A DNA stretch of 34,679 nt, taken from positions 1 through 34,679 of the forward strand of contig SUXN01000003.1 in the NCBI GenBank assembly GCA_015060965.1, given 5' to 3'. The position numbers and the translations under genes are program-made. Positions 1,234 to 10,204 of the stretch are shown piece after piece. The notes beneath the pieces were generated by a model. It was not told the DNA's origin, did not search any database, and saw only the letters and a program-made list of their open reading frames with translations. This stretch comes from Bacteroidales bacterium (GTDB lineage: Bacteria; Bacteroidota; Bacteroidia; Bacteroidales; Bacteroidaceae). The first letter of the stretch is position 1; every line of letters starts with the position of its first letter.

Positions 1234-4200
1234 TTACTTGATCAAGACCTTTTTGCCATTGATAATATAAATTCCTTTGGTCGGCTTTTCTACCTTCCTT
1301 CCTTGTAGGTCATAAACAGTTTTCACATTTACGTTTTCACCTTTCACCTCATCAATGCCGGTATCGATATCTGTTACGCTGATGCGAAAGAGATTACTGT
1401 AGTTGCTTGCATAGCCGATAGCATTTGAAAAGGAGTCAAAAGCGCCAGTGGCAGACATAATGACAATAGAACCGTCGGTTGTACCATCAGCACGTTTGCT
1501 TACAATGTAATATGTGTCGGCAACTGTTGTGCCGGCATCATTGATGCTCCAGTCGCAGTATGTAGCGTTATATGTGTCGAGAGTACCGGCGTTGTCGTTA
1601 TAGCCGTAATTTTTGCCGGCACGCCAAATCATATAAAGCTTCTTTGCCTCGTTGTAGAAGCTGTACTTGCCGCTCTCCTCTTTCTTACATACGAACTGCG
1701 CTGCCTCACCGAGTTCCTCGGCTGTAGAGGTGCTGACATTCAGTTTGTTGCTGTCGTCGATGTAAAGCACATACTCCTTACCGCTCTGCTGAACGTTGGT
1801 GAAGGTAAGCATCTTGCCGTCCCACTTGTCCGCAGGCTCCTCACCTGCAAGGAGTGCATAGATTGCGTCAACCTCGGCTGTCGTAGGCTCCTCGCTCAAT
1901 GCAGAAAGGGCTGCTGCCACGTTTGCCTGCAATGTCTCTGACACGGCTGCTTCCTCAACAACTGCTGTAAAGTAATCCTGAAGGAACGCACGACGGTCTA
2001 CATCGCGTTTGATGCTGTATTCACCGCCTGTGATGTACTCGAGGTCATATGCAACATAAAGATTGTCGAAGCCGTCGAAGTTATGCTGACCTGCACCTGT
2101 CGGGAAACTGGTTGATACAGGGTTATTGCGTTTACCGAAGCCTGTCAGTGTCTCCTCGTAGATGAAACCGATTCTGTTGTCGGCCTGGAGGTCCATTGAA
2201 CTGTAAGCCGATGCAGTGTTGCTAACCTGATAGAAGCCGTTCCAATCGATAGCGAAGTTTGCAACGCTGTTGAGGTCGGTCATATCGGTCAACTCCTTAT
2301 AGAAGATACCCACGTTTGTACGGCCGCTACCTGTAGGCAGTGACTGGAGCGCAAGGTACATCTCCTTGTTGTCGCTGTTACGCTTTACAGGAACGATGAG
2401 GATTTCACCGTTTGTTGAGTTACCGCCGGGTGTGAGGCCTGAGCCTGCGAATGTACTCTTTACTGATGTACTCCACTCGCCCTCACCCTCAAGGGTGTTG
2501 CTGTAGGTGTAGATGTTGTAGATACGTCCACCGCCTACACGGCTTGACACGATTACACGGCCGTCGGGCATCTCCTCGCACTTGGGCTCGTCACCACCTG
2601 GGACAGGCAGAGCCGATGCACCGCCGAGAGCCTGCCATGTGCGGCCGAAGTCATCGGAATAGATTACACGGTTACCGTTAGGACGTGCACACATGGCTGC
2701 GTACAGACGGTAATACTTATCCTTCTTGACTATACGGCTCTGGAACACCTTACCACCGCCGACAAAAGCTGCCTGAATAGGGTTTCCCTCATCGAAAAGA
2801 CTATAAATCTGCTCGGTTACATCAACTGGCTTTTCCCATGTCTCGCCGTTGTCCTTACTGTGGATTGTAGCAATCATATTAGGATTCTGGCGTGTTGTAT
2901 TCGCATTGCCGTAAACTGTACATCCGGCAACTGCAATGACAAGTACCTCGTCACTTGTACGGTCTGCCACGATTGCAGGGTCACCGAAAGCTGTATCAAA
3001 GTAGTTTACTGTGGCAGAAGTCTTGCCTGTACCCACAGCTACATCAATCATGTCGCTCCAAGTCTCACCATTGTCGTCACTTGTACGGCATACCACGTCT
3101 ACCTGACCGTAACCGGGGTCTGTTCCGCATACGAGACGTGCGGCAGCTGTGATAAGACGGCCGTTGCTTGCTGTTGTGATACCGGGGATACGGTATGGCG
3201 GAATGACACCGTCACCTTTACTTGTATTGTAGAGGTCCTGCTTTACAGGAACTGCCGCTGCATCGATGTTTGTGACCTTGATGGTGTTGCCATCGACTGT
3301 AATGTCGGCACCGTTGAGTATGTTTCCTACCATCGAAACAGAGAGTTTGTCGCTTGTAATAGGGGTTGAAGTGATGAAGAAACCACCGTTGAAAGCGTTC
3401 TCCACTGTTGCGCCGTTGGTATATGTAACATATACATCAGGGTTATTCTCGATGACAACCTCGAAAACGCTCATTCCCTCCATATCTACGCGCTCAAAAC
3501 GCCACTGGTTATCATCAGCAGATGGGCCGCCGTCGGTCCATGTAGTGAGGAAGTCAACACCACTCAACTTGAAGTTAGCGCCACCGTTGGTACAGTTCAG
3601 TGCCTCGGTGAAGTAATAGTAGCGGTACTCGCCCACATCATTTGTGGAACCGATGGTAAGTTCACTGTATGAACCAGCAATAGAACCTCCCCAGTTTGCA
3701 CCGGCAACAATATTGTTACCGTCACCATTCTTGATACCGAGCTTATTGTTGTCCTTTACCTCAATGTACCAGATACCATTGTTGGTATTTACCATAGAAT
3801 TTGACTGGAGTGTAAAACGCATGCTATTGCCGTTGAGAAGAGCATTGTTGTAGAGGTGCTCGGTACGTGCAGTAGCCTTGCTCACGAGGTGATAATAACC
3901 TGTCGTAACATCCTTTGCCTCGGGAATCTCTACCTCCTTGCCGTTGAGGAAATCCTCAAGGTCATTCACAACTGCTGCACACTCCTCACCAGCGATTGAT
4001 CCTGTAAAGCGTCCGAGGAGAGCATTCAATGCAGCAAGTTTCTCGGCATCGTTCTTATACTCCTCGCGCAGAATCTGGATCTTCTCGTATTGGTGTATAC
4101 CCTCGATAAGGCGCTCGAAGCGTACGCTTGAACGGTTACCCGGATAGTAGCAATAAGTATCGCCTGCACCGAACTTGCGGAAACGTGTATCGGTGAGAGG

Positions 4201-6255
4201 ATGCTCATCCCAGTTGATCCATGCCCAGTGCAGATAACCGTCAAGGTTCATTGCTGCAGCATAGATTGGCAGATATACAGCCTCTGCAGGGAATGAATTA
4301 CTGTAGATATTTGGCTCGCTGTTTGCGCAGCTTGTGTAGAAAGTGGTCACCTGACCTTTAGCCTTGCGGCTTGCAAGCTGATCTGCTGTAAAGAGGTGCT
4401 CCTGACCAAGCTGGACGCACTTGTCATGCAATATACTGCAAAGTGAACTGTGGTAGTTACCCGCCAAAGCCATCTTGAAGCCCAGCCCATTCGCAATGTC
4501 GTATGCCTTTAGCATAGCATCCTCGCCACGTTCATCAACAGCGATGCAGGTCTTCTCGAACCAACCTTTCTCAATCAAGTGAGCCTTGAATGACGTAAGG
4601 AAGTTTGTCCACAGATTCTTATACTCTGTAGATGAGTAATTTGTTGAAAGAACCTTATATTCACCGGCCTCATCATCAAAGTAACGGAAGCTCATGTCCC
4701 ATGGCAACATGCTGAAGCAGTTTATCTGCTTGTCGATACCATACTCTGCGCAAAGCTCAACGTATGCATCGAAAACAGCATAATCATATTCCCATGTACC
4801 GTCGGCAAGCCTGATAGTCTCTATCATAGGATCAAACAGGTCATGTGTCTGCTCGCCCCATGGCTCGTAGAAGAGGATTGCAGTCACCACGCGCTGACCG
4901 GCACGGCCCAAAGCCGCAAGGTAAGGACGCAGAGCCTCGAGGTGCTCATCGCTCCAACGCTCTACCTGATAGTAACGGCTAACCGAATATGGCTGCTGCC
5001 AGAAGTCGAGGTGGAATTTCTGGTCGGCAACTGTCGGCAGTGAGTGAGAATCGACAACAATGTTCAGAGCAAGGCTCTTCACCACATTGCCGTCGGCATC
5101 AACAACCTCAAGTGCTGTTGTATACTCACCGGCCTCGGCGTCGCGGGGAACCTCGATTGTACACCAAACGGGACGTGTCTCCATTGCAGGGACTGCATGT
5201 GGCTTATCCTGGTCAATGACATCGGCAACAAGCCACTGTGGCAATGTCATCGGGTGATTTCCACAAGCTACATAATCATCGGTGATTACATAGTTTACAA
5301 AGCGTGCGTCACCGCCGTTGATACCTGTAGAGGCACCGTCTTTCTTCCACTCTGTCATGCGCACAGTCATTGTGCCCTGGTCACTCTTGCTGTAGAGGAC
5401 AGCCTGGATGTTGGCGCGTTCGCCCTTCCATGCGTTGACGGTAGCCTCGTCCTTCTGGGTAACCTCAGGAACCTCGTGGAGTTTGTAGTGAACGTCGCGC
5501 GAAGCCCATGTAGCGTTCAAACCATCGGGAAGCGCATTCCAGGAAGCCTCATCAGGAGTTGTACCCACGCGTGGTTCATCGTACTCGTCAATAGGATAGC
5601 TTACCTCAATGTCACCGGCATCACCGCTCACCTTGAGCATAACGTCTATGATAGAACCACCGTCACTGATGAAGTTAGCATAGTTACCAGACGGGTCAAT
5701 ACAGTTCCACATTACTGCGTAACGCATACGGAACACAGCACCGTCCTCAACATCAGTAGGCACATTGAATGAACCCGGAGCAAGCACATCGCCGTTTGCC
5801 TGATAGATTCCGGCACTGTTCCAGCCTGTATCGCCGTTGGTATTCTTGCCATAGAGCGACCAGCACATAAGCTCGTTGCCCTCACCCTTTGTGTAAGGGC
5901 CCTCACCCTGGAGATTCACTTCGAACTGTTTGCTGTTATCCCAGTCAACGAATACATAACCGTGCATCCATGAACCGTTGATGGTGATGAGAGGAGTGAC
6001 AGTCTCACCACGCTTTACTTCAAAGACATTGTCAGTCTTGTCAAAGTACGCCGCACAACGTGGTGCCGAAGCAATATTGTTTACCTGCTGCTGAGCACTG
6101 TGTGTACCTACGATACCTACCGCTATCGGGTAGTGTGTACCATGGGTCACGTTCTCGTCAGCACCATGGACTACATAGTAGTCACTCTGGGCATTTGCAC
6201 CCGCACAAATGAATAGTGCAGACAACGCCGAAAGAATCAGTGATTTGATTTTCAT
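1234..6255 (-). CDS. Secreted GH123/DUF4091-GH33 sialidase fusion
   Basis: A 1673-residue secreted enzyme that probably removes terminal sugars from host glycans. It begins with a signal peptide (1-22, ending AGANA). A beta-rich N-terminal region leads into a GH123/DUF4091-like module (about 410-735) with the family's adjacent Asp-Glu pair (D574-E575, CIAVDERGED) and the typical DUF4091 ending YPG..SVRFERLIEGIHQYE. A lectin-like beta region follows (about 785-930). The GH33 sialidase (about 1005-1410) has YRIP (R1022), a candidate acid/base D1046, Asp boxes at 1059, 1133 and 1200, the CEEMPDGRVIVSSR stretch (R1239), R1312 and candidate nucleophile Y1351. Another lectin-like region (about 1480-1625) precedes a C-terminal tail (VYDLQGRKV..GIYIINGKKVLIK) resembling Bacteroidota sorting domains. 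GH33 releases sialic acid and characterised GH123 enzymes cleave beta-GalNAc, so the pair may act on GalNAc/sialic-acid caps such as Sda or GM2. That substrate is inference. Confidence 0.85.
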   Translation of the reverse strand: MKIKSLILSALSALFICAGANAQSDYYVVHGADENVTHGTHYPIAVGIVGTHSAQQQVNNIASAPRCAAYFDKTDNVFEVKRGETVTPLITINGSWMHGYVFVDWDNSKQFEVNLQGEGPYTKGEGNELMCWSLYGKNTNGDTGWNSAGIYQANGDVLAPGSFNVPTDVEDGAVFRMRYAVMWNCIDPSGNYANFISDGGSIIDVMLKVSGDAGDIEVSYPIDEYDEPRVGTTPDEASWNALPDGLNATWASRDVHYKLHEVPEVTQKDEATVNAWKGERANIQAVLYSKSDQGTMTVRMTEWKKDGASTGINGGDARFVNYVITDDYVACGNHPMTLPQWLVADVIDQDKPHAVPAMETRPVWCTIEVPRDAEAGEYTTALEVVDADGNVVKSLALNIVVDSHSLPTVADQKFHLDFWQQPYSVSRYYQVERWSDEHLEALRPYLAALGRAGQRVVTAILFYEPWGEQTHDLFDPMIETIRLADGTWEYDYAVFDAYVELCAEYGIDKQINCFSMLPWDMSFRYFDDEAGEYKVLSTNYSSTEYKNLWTNFLTSFKAHLIEKGWFEKTCIAVDERGEDAMLKAYDIANGLGFKMALAGNYHSSLCSILHDKCVQLGQEHLFTADQLASRKAKGQVTTFYTSCANSEPNIYSNSFPAEAVYLPIYAAAMNLDGYLHWAWINWDEHPLTDTRFRKFGAGDTYCYYPGNRSSVRFERLIEGIHQYEKIQILREEYKNDAEKLAALNALLGRFTGSIAGEECAAVVNDLEDFLNGKEVEIPEAKDVTTGYYHLVSKATARTEHLYNNALLNGNSMRFTLQSNSMVNTNNGIWYIEVKDNNKLGIKNGDGNNIVAGANWGGSIAGSYSELTIGSTNDVGEYRYYYFTEALNCTNGGANFKLSGVDFLTTWTDGGPSADDNQWRFERVDMEGMSVFEVVIENNPDVYVTYTNGATVENAFNGGFFITSTPITSDKLSVSMVGNILNGADITVDGNTIKVTNIDAAAVPVKQDLYNTSKGDGVIPPYRIPGITTASNGRLITAAARLVCGTDPGYGQVDVVCRTSDDNGETWSDMIDVAVGTGKTSATVNYFDTAFGDPAIVADRTSDEVLVIAVAGCTVYGNANTTRQNPNMIATIHSKDNGETWEKPVDVTEQIYSLFDEGNPIQAAFVGGGKVFQSRIVKKDKYYRLYAAMCARPNGNRVIYSDDFGRTWQALGGASALPVPGGDEPKCEEMPDGRVIVSSRVGGGRIYNIYTYSNTLEGEGEWSTSVKSTFAGSGLTPGGNSTNGEILIVPVKRNSDNKEMYLALQSLPTGSGRTNVGIFYKELTDMTDLNSVANFAIDWNGFYQVSNTASAYSSMDLQADNRIGFIYEETLTGFGKRNNPVSTSFPTGAGQHNFDGFDNLYVAYDLEYITGGEYSIKRDVDRRAFLQDYFTAVVEEAAVSETLQANVAAALSALSEEPTTAEVDAIYALLAGEEPADKWDGKMLTFTNVQQSGKEYVLYIDDSNKLNVSTSTAEELGEAAQFVCKKEESGKYSFYNEAKKLYMIWRAGKNYGYNDNAGTLDTYNATYCDWSINDAGTTVADTYYIVSKRADGTTDGSIVIMSATGAFDSFSNAIGYASNYSNLFRISVTDIDTGIDEVKGENVNVKTVYDLQGRKVEKPTKGIYIINGKKVLIK

Positions 6256-6329
6256 AAAAGGTTAATTATTAAGTTAAATTATAGAATATTCCAAAAGCCA
6301 CACAAATAGCCATTATATCAATTATTTTG

Positions 6330-6337
6330 CAAATATA
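6330..6337 (-). promoter_or_regulatory. Candidate -7 box for the sialidase gene
   Basis: The minus strand reads TATATTTG, matching TAnnTTTG, about 75 nt before the start codon. No TTG sits at the ideal -33 distance. It implies a leader of roughly 65-70 nt. Confidence 0.4.
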
Positions 6338-6388
6338 TAACTATAAAAAATACAATAACTAAAATTAATAAAAAAAAATTAAGTATAG

Positions 6389-6515
6389 CCTTGAATTCCT
6401 TTGAGTTCCTTGAGTACCTTAGGGTCCTTAAGGTCTTTAAAATCCTTAGAGTCTTTAGGGAGTGGCAACCTTAAGGACCCCATAGACCCTGCAGACCATA
6501 AAGACCCCGAAGCCA
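6389..6515. repeat. Degenerate 9-nt tandem array with inverted halves
   Basis: From 6389 to 6461 the plus strand is built of near 9-nt units of the form YCTTNRRRT (CCTTGAGTA, CCTTAGGGT, CCTTAAGGT, CTTTAAAAT, CCTTAGAGT). From 6471 to 6515 units end in GACC (TTAAGGACC, CCATAGACC, CTGCAGACC, ATAAAGACC), the same motif in reverse complement and near the same 9-nt period. A perfect 13-bp inverted repeat (6422-6434 with 6468-6480) joins the halves. It fills the gap between two minus-strand genes and could end transcription from the pseudouridine synthase gene, though no T-run is adjacent. Confidence 0.7.
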
Positions 6516-6533
6516 ATAGCCCGCAGCACCCAC

Positions 6534-8171
6534 TCAAAAAGGGACTTTTGCAGTAATAGAAACTTTTTCACCCGTCATAGGATGACGGAACTCAAGCGAT
6601 GCGGCGTGCAGCATGAGCCTGTCGGCAAGCCTGCCATAAAGCGCATCGCCTACGATGGGCACGTCGAGCCCGTCCTTGTAGGCAGAATGAACACGAAGCT
6701 GATGCGTGCGGCCTGTAAGAGGCTCAAAGCGAACCAGAGCACACTGTTTGCCATCGTAGCCTACAACATCAAGAATATCGTAACGTGTCACAGCCTCCTT
6801 GCCGTTGCGGTAATCGACCTTCTGACGCGGACGGGCATCATAATCAGCAGCAAGAGGCAGGCTTATTGTGCCCGAATTAGCAGACGGCACCCCGTCAAGC
6901 AAAGCTATATACTCCTTTTTCACATCTCTTGATGCGAACAATGCCTGCATAGCCTTGTAAACCTCCATTGATTTTGCCGCGACAAGCACGCCCGACGTTG
7001 CCATATCGAGGCGATGAACCACAAAAAGTTCATTACAACGAAGATACTCTTCGCGTAGCCACTGCTGCACCGATGTACCTCCTACAATACCGGGCACAGA
7101 GAGCACCCCACTCGGTTTGTTCACAGCAACAAGCCATTCGTCTTCATACACAACCTCCAAAGCATTGATATCACCACCGTGCTCAAGGGCGTTCTCCTCA
7201 ACATCAAGCCCTTGCAACATATACGTAAGTATCGGTTCGCATTTACTTTTACATGCACCATAGAAACAGCCGTCACGACGAACCTCGCCCACAGGTGACT
7301 CACCCACCCAGAACTCCGCCAATGCAAGCGGATGAAGCGAATTGGCATAGGCATACTGCATCAGTTTCGGACCTGCACACTCCCCTGCCCCCGCAGGCGG
7401 AATACAGCCACGATGCTCCTTGAAAATATCGAGCAGTGTACGCTCCCTGCCACGTCCGTCAAGCATCACGAACTGCCGGAAAAGCCACTGCTGCAACGCT
7501 GCTGAACGGCTGCGTCTTTCGGCAACATAGCAGGCCTTCTTGTCGGTAAATATTTTTAACAAAGTCTCCTTCTCAAGAACCTTTGCCTGCCAAGCACGTT
7601 GCGCGCGTTTAAGCTCCGCTTTCTCAAACTGGCTGGCTTTGATGAGCGTGGCCTCATCATCGGCTGTCAGCGTTCCTCCGGCACGCAGTTGCGCACGTCG
7701 GGCCTTGTTGGCAGCAAACCCTGCACGCATACCAGCCATGGCTTCATCGGCCGCATGCCTTACAGCATCAAGAGCGTCCTTTGCCGAGATATATTCGGCA
7801 GAAGCCTCAAGTCCCTTTATCTTAGCGTTGATTGCCGAAATCTCAGCCTCTTCACGTTTGAAATAGCCATCGGGATTTTGCAGGTCAAAGACCGGTGGCA
7901 CAAAGCCTTCTACATTGTTGCAACCCATGAAAAGCCCCGAGAAAGCCGCAAGGTAACCGATACTGCCCTCCTTGTCACGCACCACCAGCACACCGAACAT
8001 CTTTCCTTTGGCAGCCTCTGCGGCAACAGCCTCACCACTGAGCATATTTGCACGCACCTCATCGGCAGCAATCATGCACAACCGATGAGGTGAATAGTAG
8101 AAGGGATTATTGAAACGCAGCGGCAATTCAACATCCGAAATATCCTGTTTGAATCTATGCAGCAGCTGCAT
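6534..8171 (-). CDS. RluA-family pseudouridine synthase with long N-terminal extension
   Basis: Converts specific uridines of rRNA or tRNA to pseudouridine; the target base cannot be told from sequence. The C-terminal 210 residues are a standard RluA domain: EDEWLVAVNKPSG, the catalytic HRLD at about 386-389 (Asp nucleophile), GRTHQLRVH and the closing LMLHAASLEFRHP. The first 330 residues are an extension with a probable coiled coil (about 105-220), a PAGAGECAGPKLMQYAY segment and a cysteine cluster (CFYGACKSKC, about 302-311) that may bind a metal. A TTG one codon upstream is possible, but the ATG at 8171-8169 fits better: it overlaps the TGA of the GH110 gene by one base (TGATG), which implies translational coupling. 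The pairing of an RNA-modifying enzyme with a glycosidase looks like operon convenience rather than shared function. Confidence 0.88.
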   Translation of the reverse strand: MQLLHRFKQDISDVELPLRFNNPFYYSPHRLCMIAADEVRANMLSGEAVAAEAAKGKMFGVLVVRDKEGSIGYLAAFSGLFMGCNNVEGFVPPVFDLQNPDGYFKREEAEISAINAKIKGLEASAEYISAKDALDAVRHAADEAMAGMRAGFAANKARRAQLRAGGTLTADDEATLIKASQFEKAELKRAQRAWQAKVLEKETLLKIFTDKKACYVAERRSRSAALQQWLFRQFVMLDGRGRERTLLDIFKEHRGCIPPAGAGECAGPKLMQYAYANSLHPLALAEFWVGESPVGEVRRDGCFYGACKSKCEPILTYMLQGLDVEENALEHGGDINALEVVYEDEWLVAVNKPSGVLSVPGIVGGTSVQQWLREEYLRCNELFVVHRLDMATSGVLVAAKSMEVYKAMQALFASRDVKKEYIALLDGVPSANSGTISLPLAADYDARPRQKVDYRNGKEAVTRYDILDVVGYDGKQCALVRFEPLTGRTHQLRVHSAYKDGLDVPIVGDALYGRLADRLMLHAASLEFRHPMTGEKVSITAKVPF

Positions 8172-10009
8172 CAATCGTTGTATTTGACATCTTTCTCCGG
8201 ATCAAAGCCACCAGGAAAATCATTGCCCTCTATCGTTACGTTCGTAACCTTCTCAAGCAAGAAACGGTGTCTGTTCCAATGGAAAGGCTCATAATCATTG
8301 TTCTGAACAACCTTGTTCCCCTTGAACACAAGGCCGTCAAGCGACTTTGCATATACAATGGGTGCATCAAAGGTCTCAAATGTATTATTCTCGATGACAA
8401 CACCTTTGCCATTGCCGCCATGGAAATATTTCTGCTGGCCGGCAAGGTCAGGAATCTCGGGATAGATTGATATTATGGCATTTGTGAACTGGAACATGTT
8501 TGTGAGTGAATTCACAAAGCGGTTGTCACGTATTACCACATCGCGACAGGCACCCGTCTCGAACCAGCCGTTGCAATCGCCACAGAGCAGGATTGCCGTT
8601 CCCGACGTATGGTCGAAGAAGTTTCGCTCCACCAGCGTGCTCTTGGGAGTGCTGAACAGCGTACCACGCGCACGGTTGTTGCGGATGACATTATCGCTGA
8701 ACACAACCTCGGGTGTCCACTCAAGGTTCTCTATTCCATAACTGCCATTGGCTATGTCAGTGGGCAAAGGAGCGACAAACTTAATCTTGAATTCCTTGCA
8801 ACCGGCTATCTGTTCCTTGTCATGGGGAACAATATCCACAATGCGGTTACCCTCGGTAATCTCCATCACATCGGAACGCACGAACTGCACGCTGTCACCC
8901 GCACCGCCCCAATAGAAACCGTATGCCTGACCATGCATATAACGACCTACCAGAGTATGGTCATCCAACCTTTCAACAACACGCAGATATGTTCCGTGCA
9001 CGTTGATGGCATCGTCCATCATGCCCTCGTAAATACCGCCGGTTGAGACAATCTTTCCCTTGCAGCCCGAGAAGTGCGTTGCATCGGCCTGCGTGGAGAA
9101 ATAGCGTTCATTGCTGCGCCTGCCGACTATGAAACGCTCAAGTGTGATATTCTCGGTAACCTGAGCAAGAAGTCCCATACCCTCGGCATAATACACAGAG
9201 GTACTCTTTATTGTGATATCCTTGCAACCCGACACGAAGATTCCCGGTGTAGGGCGCGCATAGGAGCGCATTGCGATTACCGTACCCGGCACAAGACGGG
9301 CATCGCGCCACGGGGCGCGGATAACACGCGGCTCAACCTCCTCGACACCTCTTACACCCACACCGATGTCGCTTGTACGGTAAACAAGATGTCTCGTCTC
9401 ACCGTCAAAAGCAATACCGGCCTGAGGAACAAATTCCCAGTTACTGCCGTATGTAACCAGATTGCCGTCGACAATCCTGTAGTTTGCGTACGGAGCAATG
9501 CGGTATGTTATATAACCGTTCTCGGTATCGTTCTCAAGTACCTCTACCTGGGTAATCTGTGGCGAGCGCGTATCAATGCCGACAAAGTCGAGCTTGCAGT
9601 TCTCGCAACCCACCATGGCAATGGGAAGCATACGGCCATTCATCATGAAATCGGCACGGAGCGCATCCATACCCCTGTCACCACCCTTGAGAGTGAAGTT
9701 CTTCATCCCCTCGAGAACGATTGCCACCTTCTTGGGGTTGTCCTGGTCGTGATTGCTGATATAATACTCGCGCACATTGGCACTGTCGGGGTAGAAATCG
9801 TACTCACCGCCCTCGAAGAGCAGCACTGCCGGCTCACCGTTGCACTCGGCCTTGATTGTCTCAATGGCAAGCGCCACCTTGGCTATCATATCCTCGCCGG
9901 TGCCGGGCACAATGCCGAAATCACTCGCATAATAGACTTTTTCATTTGAGCCACAAGACACCACAAAGAGTATCAACACTGCAACAAGGCAAGAGAAAAT
10001 CTTTTTCAT
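8171..10009 (-). CDS. GH110 alpha-1,3-galactosidase, lipoprotein
   Basis: Removes terminal alpha-1,3-linked galactose, as on blood group B or linear alpha-Gal glycans. I place the start at 10009, giving 612 residues: MKKIFSCLVAVLILFVVSC is a lipoprotein signal with lipobox cysteine C19, and the codons upstream overlap the promoter and have no signal character. The mature protein is a right-handed parallel beta-helix with many repeated VxIxxN turns. GH110 hallmarks include YYASDFGIVPGTGED near the N terminus, DATHFSGCKG (309-318), and MDDAINVHGTY, whose D332-D333 pair lies where the family's catalytic aspartates are expected. The length agrees with Bacteroides GH110 enzymes of about 600 residues. 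It is probably surface- or periplasm-anchored. The nearby sialidase-GalNAcase fusion points to a shared role in foraging on host mucin or glycolipid. A or B subtype is not resolved. Confidence 0.88.
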   Translation of the reverse strand: MKKIFSCLVAVLILFVVSCGSNEKVYYASDFGIVPGTGEDMIAKVALAIETIKAECNGEPAVLLFEGGEYDFYPDSANVREYYISNHDQDNPKKVAIVLEGMKNFTLKGGDRGMDALRADFMMNGRMLPIAMVGCENCKLDFVGIDTRSPQITQVEVLENDTENGYITYRIAPYANYRIVDGNLVTYGSNWEFVPQAGIAFDGETRHLVYRTSDIGVGVRGVEEVEPRVIRAPWRDARLVPGTVIAMRSYARPTPGIFVSGCKDITIKSTSVYYAEGMGLLAQVTENITLERFIVGRRSNERYFSTQADATHFSGCKGKIVSTGGIYEGMMDDAINVHGTYLRVVERLDDHTLVGRYMHGQAYGFYWGGAGDSVQFVRSDVMEITEGNRIVDIVPHDKEQIAGCKEFKIKFVAPLPTDIANGSYGIENLEWTPEVVFSDNVIRNNRARGTLFSTPKSTLVERNFFDHTSGTAILLCGDCNGWFETGACRDVVIRDNRFVNSLTNMFQFTNAIISIYPEIPDLAGQQKYFHGGNGKGVVIENNTFETFDAPIVYAKSLDGLVFKGNKVVQNNDYEPFHWNRHRFLLEKVTNVTIEGNDFPGGFDPEKDVKYND

Positions 10010-10030
10010 AAACAATTCATTATTTTTTTG

Positions 10031-10060
10031 CGAAGATAAACAAAATGTGACAAAAACCAA
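10031..10060 (-). promoter_or_regulatory. Promoter of the GH110 gene
   Basis: On the minus strand, TTG (10060-10058) and TATCTTCG (10038-10031) are separated by 19 nt, close to the Bacteroidota consensus with one mismatch in the -7 box. The start codon at 10009 follows after a leader of about 15-20 nt. This also supports the shorter start chosen for the gene. Confidence 0.6.
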
Positions 10061-10204
10061 CAGCATGGAGAATCTTTTATGACATAATGCCATACGGCGC
10101 ATTCCATTTATGACATCCATGTTGCAATGGCACACTTTTTGCAATTTTAATGACGGAGGGAATAGTTTTTCTCTTTTTTATTATAAGAATTTATATTTTA
10201 TAAC

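Follow-up and report, generated by a model that had tools for sequence, protein, structure and literature searches.

The closest described counterpart of the protein reported here is SiaBb3 of Bifidobacterium bifidum, which was published on 30 December 2025 (JBC, PMC12856340) and which overtakes a statement in the initial annotation of this locus that no described enzyme was known to combine a GH123 module with a GH33 sialidase. In the available part of that paper, SiaBb3 is a protein of 1,753 aa with a GH123 domain at residues 281–757 and a sialidase domain at 1229–1607, and it takes Neu5Ac first and GalNAc second, both off GM2 and off Sda on mucin (PMC12856340). The double substitution D617A/E618A kills the GalNAc activity, and the sialidase is killed by mutation of Y1574 or by mutation of E1430 together with Y1558 (PMC12856340, available part). 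SiaBb3 also desialylates glycans other than Sda, and its authors note that whether gut microbes can use Sda had been unknown (PMC12856340). Separate enzymes acting on Sda were described for Akkermansia in January 2025 (PMC11790493, excerpt). Among GH123 enzymes, GA2 and Gb4 are also accepted as substrates (PMC12856340, PMC7531118, excerpts), and BvGH123 was reportedly assayed on chromogenic substrates only (PMC7531118, excerpt). Besides SiaBb3, no GH123–GH33 protein appeared among the matches listed for titles and abstract starts of the open-licence literature, and the excerpts of PMC7531118 and PMC11323728 mention GH123 enzymes and no GH123–GH33 fusion.

The DNA analyzed here (the window) is a stretch of 34,679 nt on contig SUXN01000003.1 of assembly GCA_015060965.1, from a Bacteroidales bacterium (Bacteroidaceae), and all coordinates are those of the window. 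A single ORF with an ATG start and exact limits occupies positions 1234–6255 on the reverse strand and encodes 1,673 aa. GH123 is followed by GH33 in one secreted chain, which is the layout of SiaBb3, with the signal peptide judged by eye. Relatives were compared in a named collection in which the best 80 of 128 relative-encoding stretches were kept, corresponding to 76 loci. GH123 and GH33 lie in one ORF at 46 of these 76 loci, and the 46 fused relatives together with the window protein form the 47 rows of the conservation alignment. The features of the gene are as follows.

1234..6255, reverse strand: whole gene, with signal peptide, N-terminal domain, GH123, spacer, GH33 sialidase, C-terminal domain and sorting tail; relatives have the same architecture
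6190..6255, reverse strand: predicted signal peptide (residues 1–22), judged by eye from a hydrophobic start followed by ANA-QS
5548..6186, reverse strand: N-terminal domain (residues 24–236), weakly GEVED-like (PF20009, E 4e-4, below cut-off); present in 42 of the 46 fused ORFs
4027..5547, reverse strand: GH123 N-terminal beta domain plus catalytic domain (residues 237–743; PF22680, PF13320; 5l7r, E 5e-123)
4531..4536, reverse strand: GH123 catalytic pair D574-E575, aligned with the D-E-R of 5l7r and 5fqe and present in 47/47 rows
3301..4020, reverse strand: spacer of about 240 aa (residues 746–985), of a type found in 35 of the 46 fused ORFs
2056..3300, reverse strand: GH33-type exo-sialidase (residues 986–1400; NF052328, E 6e-80; 10qf, E 1e-67)
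1336..2055, reverse strand: C-terminal domain (residues 1401–1640), possibly a beta-trefoil; RicinB_lectin_2 matches below threshold only
1237..1338, reverse strand: C-terminal tail (residues 1640–1673), probably the sorting signal for type IX secretion; it recurs in the genome, where SprA and type IX sortase matches are also found

The first module had been read as GH123-like, with a Pfam search proposed as the check, and that search returned the complete GH123 catalytic domain far over its cut-off (GH123_cat, PF13320, residues 419–729, profile positions 1–324 of 324, E 2.3e-94, 317 bits against a cut-off of 23.1), together with Glyco_hydro_123_N_2 at residues 250–385 (E 3.7e-34). The best-scoring solved GH123 is 5l7r, which covers residues 237–743, and 5fqe also matches the GH123 half (E 3e-57). 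We take 5l7r to be the GH123 of Bacteroides vulgatus (BvGH123) and 5fqe to be CpNga123 of Clostridium perfringens. D574-E575 aligns onto the D-E-R motif of both structures and corresponds to the catalytic pair of characterized GH123 enzymes. The BvGH123 and CpNga123 chains are 563–610 aa long, and their matches to the window protein are confined to its GH123 part. In this part the window protein is comparable to them, and it is predicted from the sequence to release beta-linked GalNAc.

The second half matches the NCBIfam model NeuramTDE0471 (NF052328) at residues 981–1374, but since its score of 269.5 bits is below the equivalog cut-off of 900 it is not a TDE0471 equivalog. The generic Pfam models are borderline: BNR_2 scores 30.3 and narrowly misses its cut-off of 31.4, whereas BNR, at 27.1, narrowly passes its cut-off of 27. 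The structure of Treponema denticola NanH (10qf) matches residues 981–1373; the NanH chain has 531 aa and matches the sialidase part of the window protein only, the two having in common this domain, six catalytic residues and three Asp boxes (PMC12889680, available part). R1022, D1046, E1223, R1239, R1312 and Y1351 correspond one for one to the NanH catalytic residues R140, D165, E338, R354, R423 and Y463 given in the accessible text (PMC12889680), in a mapping counted by hand along the alignment; the numbering of the chain differs from that of the paper by 12 for every one of the six. In the variant NanH chain 10qi, A stands opposite D1046, where 10qf has D. The GH33 set is complete, with the arginines R1022, R1239 and R1312, the Asp acid/base D1046 and the Glu–Tyr nucleophile pair E1223/Y1351. 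The earlier residue set was right in R1022, D1046, R1239, R1312 and Y1351 and incomplete in lacking E1223, which has to be added. A whole-protein search also recovered the three canonical Asp boxes that had been described (at 1059, 1133 and 1200). By these matches the window protein would be an active sialidase. The initial annotation's central observation, two complete catalytic domains within one secreted chain, is therefore borne out by family matches, residue mapping and conservation, secretion being read from the predicted signal peptide, and every residue it named stands at the number it gave.

The spacer and the C-terminal region had been described as lectin-like, a description that the searches do not bear out: neither stretch has a Pfam match over a curated cut-off, and PDB profile searches returned nothing convincing. 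The C-terminal region reaches E 0.056 against RicinB_lectin_2 in the window protein (0.012 in the best of 10 relatives), and the window's spacer has no profile match, with RicinB at 0.015 in one of 10 relatives. Nor do the two regions align with each other (probability 0.5%). Of 36 rows matching the protein in its own genome, 18 cover only the last 83 residues or fewer, and thus the tail recurs in the genome. A match over cut-off to a type IX sortase model is found in the same genome, as is one to SprA, the latter split over two adjacent frames (contig G000:C10:24750-31915). None of the NCBIfam sorting-signal models matched the tail. Because the tail recurs and SprA and the sortase are matched, export by the type IX system is likely. 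An orphan second copy of the tail lies just downstream of the gene (1012–1116 against 1236–1340; 105 nt, 77% identical as DNA and 88% as protein over 34 residues), and the short stretch between the two copies looks hairpin-like by eye. The intergenic region 200–1233 is dense in dispersed repeats, with 97 match rows in the genome, its own copy included, and it holds a 43-nt hairpin-bearing unit twice, 617 nt apart.

The GH110 gene noted about 2 kb upstream is present, with both GLAA-B barrel domains over cut-off (8171–10144, reverse strand), its near end 1.9 kb upstream of the fusion gene. In the stretch 6534–10144 on the reverse strand, the frames of a pseudouridine synthase and of GH110 overlap by four bases with the listed starts. 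Of 95 loci checked, 12 have GH110 together with the RluA-type gene near the fusion and 15 have the pseudouridine synthase; at many loci the flank is too short for a call. Where the flank is long enough, SecA adjoins the pair in seven of eight loci. The block is absent from other loci with 7 kb of flank, for instance L059, L062, L065 and L071. GH110 was accordingly set aside as a functional partner. The block being missing at other well-flanked loci and lying beside SecA elsewhere, it says little about function, and it looks like a chromosomal place common to some relatives rather than a dedicated glycan locus.

The window protein is best explained as a secreted, probably surface-attached, two-step exoglycosidase for Sda/Cad-type and GM2-type caps, a reading to which we assign a probability of roughly 0.7. 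In this mechanism, the GH33 domain would first remove the terminal alpha-linked sialic acid and the GH123 domain would then remove the beta-linked GalNAc on the same galactose, so that Sda/Cad-type mucin caps, and GM2-type glycans, would be left with a bare galactose end and both released sugars could serve growth. Sda/GM2 is preferred here because SiaBb3, with the same domains in the same order, acts on both. The initial annotation's proposal of an enzyme for caps that carry both sugars on one galactose gains from this analogy, by which we also infer the order of sialic acid before GalNAc; Sda would presumably be the main target. The fusion would not be the only route to these sugars in this bacterium, since matches in the genome include six further genes of sialidase type and two in which GH123 stands alone. 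Two nanA-like matches in the genome, neither over cut-off, are uninformative, as 14 of 14 control genomes also match.

An alternative is that both domains are active on different glycans, in a broad decapping of mucin in which ordinary sialic acid and terminal beta-GalNAc (GA2, Gb4, asialo chains) are removed and Sda is incidental. We regard this as unlikely, though with several observations in its favor. SiaBb3 itself desialylates more than Sda (PMC12856340, available part), and the spacer varies widely in length and content. The spacer type of the window, with a gap of 238–246 aa, is found in 35 of 46 fused ORFs; of the other 11, nine have different sequence, 145–160 aa long, and the gap is 60 aa in L095 and 33 aa in L102. 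A range of 33–246 aa speaks against a fixed geometry that hands the substrate from one site to the other. The GH33 domain of the window also has a close relative in a long, otherwise different frame: L150 (G830, from position 5111 on the forward strand) has a sialidase domain 72% identical to that of the window in a frame of at least 2,963 aa, with stretches that look repeat-like by eye and no GH123 match in the open frame.

GH123 and GH33 are also found apart inside the same groups of relatives, a further point for separate substrates. A GH123 tree with long branches, built by a quick method from 115 rows of which 93 are distinct and rooted at the midpoint, places 63 of 63 fused rows inside one group of 78 rows with a support of 88 (not starred); the support is 99 (starred) once the GH123-only L104 is added, and 79 with 40 chosen rows of the 115. 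Forms without the sialidase are nested inside this group at several places. In L080, L082 and L083 the sialidase is missing from ORFs that end within the contig and that retain the N-terminal domain, GH123, the spacer and a tail, and L098, L114, L103 and L120 are GH123 alone; L078, L079 and L086 are truncated at contig ends and therefore uninformative. In a GH33 tree of 81 rows, with long branches, the 63 fused rows fall in one group of 67 rows (support 99, starred). Of the four rows of this group that are not fused in one frame, L024 and L077 are one split copy fetched twice, and L029 and L030 are sialidases without GH123 in the frame. The simplest reading, which these trees do not show strongly, would be one origin of the fusion followed by several losses of the sialidase half. 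The pairing would not be indispensable, because there are relatives with GH123 and without GH33, and L029 and L030 have the sialidase without GH123.

Separate substrates, however, fit poorly with fusions in the same order on two separate branches here, the second in a single assembly, and with the one published in another phylum, which together suggest a shared substrate that needs both domains. The second fusion, L126 (genome G026, genus g26, same family), is an ORF of 1,300 aa with GH123 followed by a GH33-like domain (BNR_2 98 bits, BNR_3 72 bits) whose best identity to a row of the GH33 tree is 35%. L126 and the window protein thus share the two families, their order and the single chain, but L126 belongs to another GH123 branch and has another type of sialidase. 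Its GH123 domain (tree row L037_solo, labeled solo because its sialidase scored below the labeling threshold) pairs with a GH123-only row on another branch. Forcing this domain into the fusion group of the window was rejected with a p-AU of 3.6e-9, in a test weakened by the group having been picked after the tree was seen. G+C is even along the L126 ORF at 61–70% from base 5500 on and lower in the first 300 bases. A fusion of this type was found in one of 120 genomes searched, that is, in one assembly.

A second alternative, that one domain is catalytically weak or mainly binding and the enzyme is in effect a sialidase or a GalNAcase alone, is very improbable. It could appeal to the BNR_2 score just under the Pfam cut-off and to the prediction of both activities from sequence, but no catalytic residue of either domain varies in the rows that cover it. 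Six of the eight catalytic residues are present in 47 of 47 rows, R1312 in 46 of 47 and Y1351 in 45 of 47, and the exceptions are gaps where contigs end. Also against it, both domains appear to be under strong purifying selection. The ratio dN/dS is 0.064–0.085 for GH123 (computable in four of seven pairwise comparisons) and 0.034–0.053 for GH33 (computable in five of seven), the ratios being rough because synonymous change is near saturation. In seven of seven pairs, the identity of GH33 is the highest or joint highest among the five parts.

An artefact of assembly or annotation is practically ruled out, for although the title of every one of the 46 fused named loci denotes a metagenome-assembled genome, the same architecture and domain order recurs in separate assemblies (46 of 76 loci, 45 isolates by title, many animals). 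The difference between loci and isolates is due to L057 and L069, which are from one isolate; the fused ORFs of L057, L069 and L070 are cut by the contig end. By title, 32 of the 46 fused loci come from the ruminant cecum, colon or rectum, two from the rumen and 12 from neither, although 32 of 46 is not a measured preference because the collection is rich in ruminant genomes. Bacteroidaceae is the titled family of 32 of the 46.

The distribution of the fused gene was followed at three further levels. A scan of 301 genomes of the family, own included, with scoring limited to the best two candidates of each genome and counts that are lower bounds, found it in one frame in at least 13 of 21 genomes of the genus, own included, among the matches listed; in G067 of the same genus it is split over two overlapping frames. 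Outside the genus, among the matches listed, it is full-length or nearly so in G259, G190, G134 and G263 and lies in three frames in G268. In the order (344 genomes, two candidates scored each), the listed matches that span both domains come from the window's own genome and from G830, a genome of another family. The G830 copy is 72% identical over the two-domain part, in a frame of 1,983 aa, and L093, which is within the family, is 59% identical; the GH123 domain of L093 is identical to that of L027, the copy of G263. That the G830 copy is closer than some copies within the family, such as L093, would fit horizontal transfer. A search of plasmids with the two-domain part returned 15 records with GH123 or sialidase matches, none covering 80% of the query. 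In a scan of 395 genomes of the phylum, GH123 was found at E <=1e-20 in 18, and a frame of this length only in the window's own genome. The next longest GH123 frame there, of 1,302 aa, encodes a GH89–GH123 protein. In L127 (G013, 4587–8492, reverse strand), an ORF of 1,301 aa joins GH123 to a GH89-type alpha-N-acetylglucosaminidase with NAGLU domains.

More broadly, and with somewhat less than even odds, the GH123–GH33 fusion could have arisen repeatedly, by convergence on one substrate, the doubly capped galactose of Sda/Cad mucin. It would have been built at least twice in gut Bacteroidales (the clade of the window and L126) and again in Bifidobacterium, and horizontal transfer would account for part of the spread of the window's clade among hindgut genera and families. 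New here are a large Bacteroidota lineage of such two-in-one proteins, sampled mainly in the ruminant hindgut, losses of the sialidase half that seem to have happened repeatedly, and a second fusion from other GH123 and GH33 branches. This raises the testable claim that one substrate selects for the pairing of GH123 and GH33, and the natural losses of the sialidase half would show when the pairing is no longer needed.

The two-in-one design is already known through SiaBb3, and the lineage of the window may be a separate build of such an enzyme. As far as the available part of PMC12856340 describes SiaBb3, the two proteins are similar in length (1,753 aa and, for the window protein, 1,673 aa) and share the order of GH123 before GH33 in a single secreted chain, the D-E pair of GH123, three complete Asp boxes and a gut habitat. 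The spacing of the Glu–Tyr pair is also the same, E1430–Y1558 in SiaBb3 and E1223–Y1351 in the window protein both being 128 residues apart, a match that is weak evidence because NanH has 125. SiaBb3 comes from Actinomycetota, whereas the window protein comes from Bacteroidota; SiaBb3 has a sortase anchor and a membrane span in place of the type IX-like tail; and its domains are separated by 471 aa, compared with about 240 aa in the window protein (PMC12856340).
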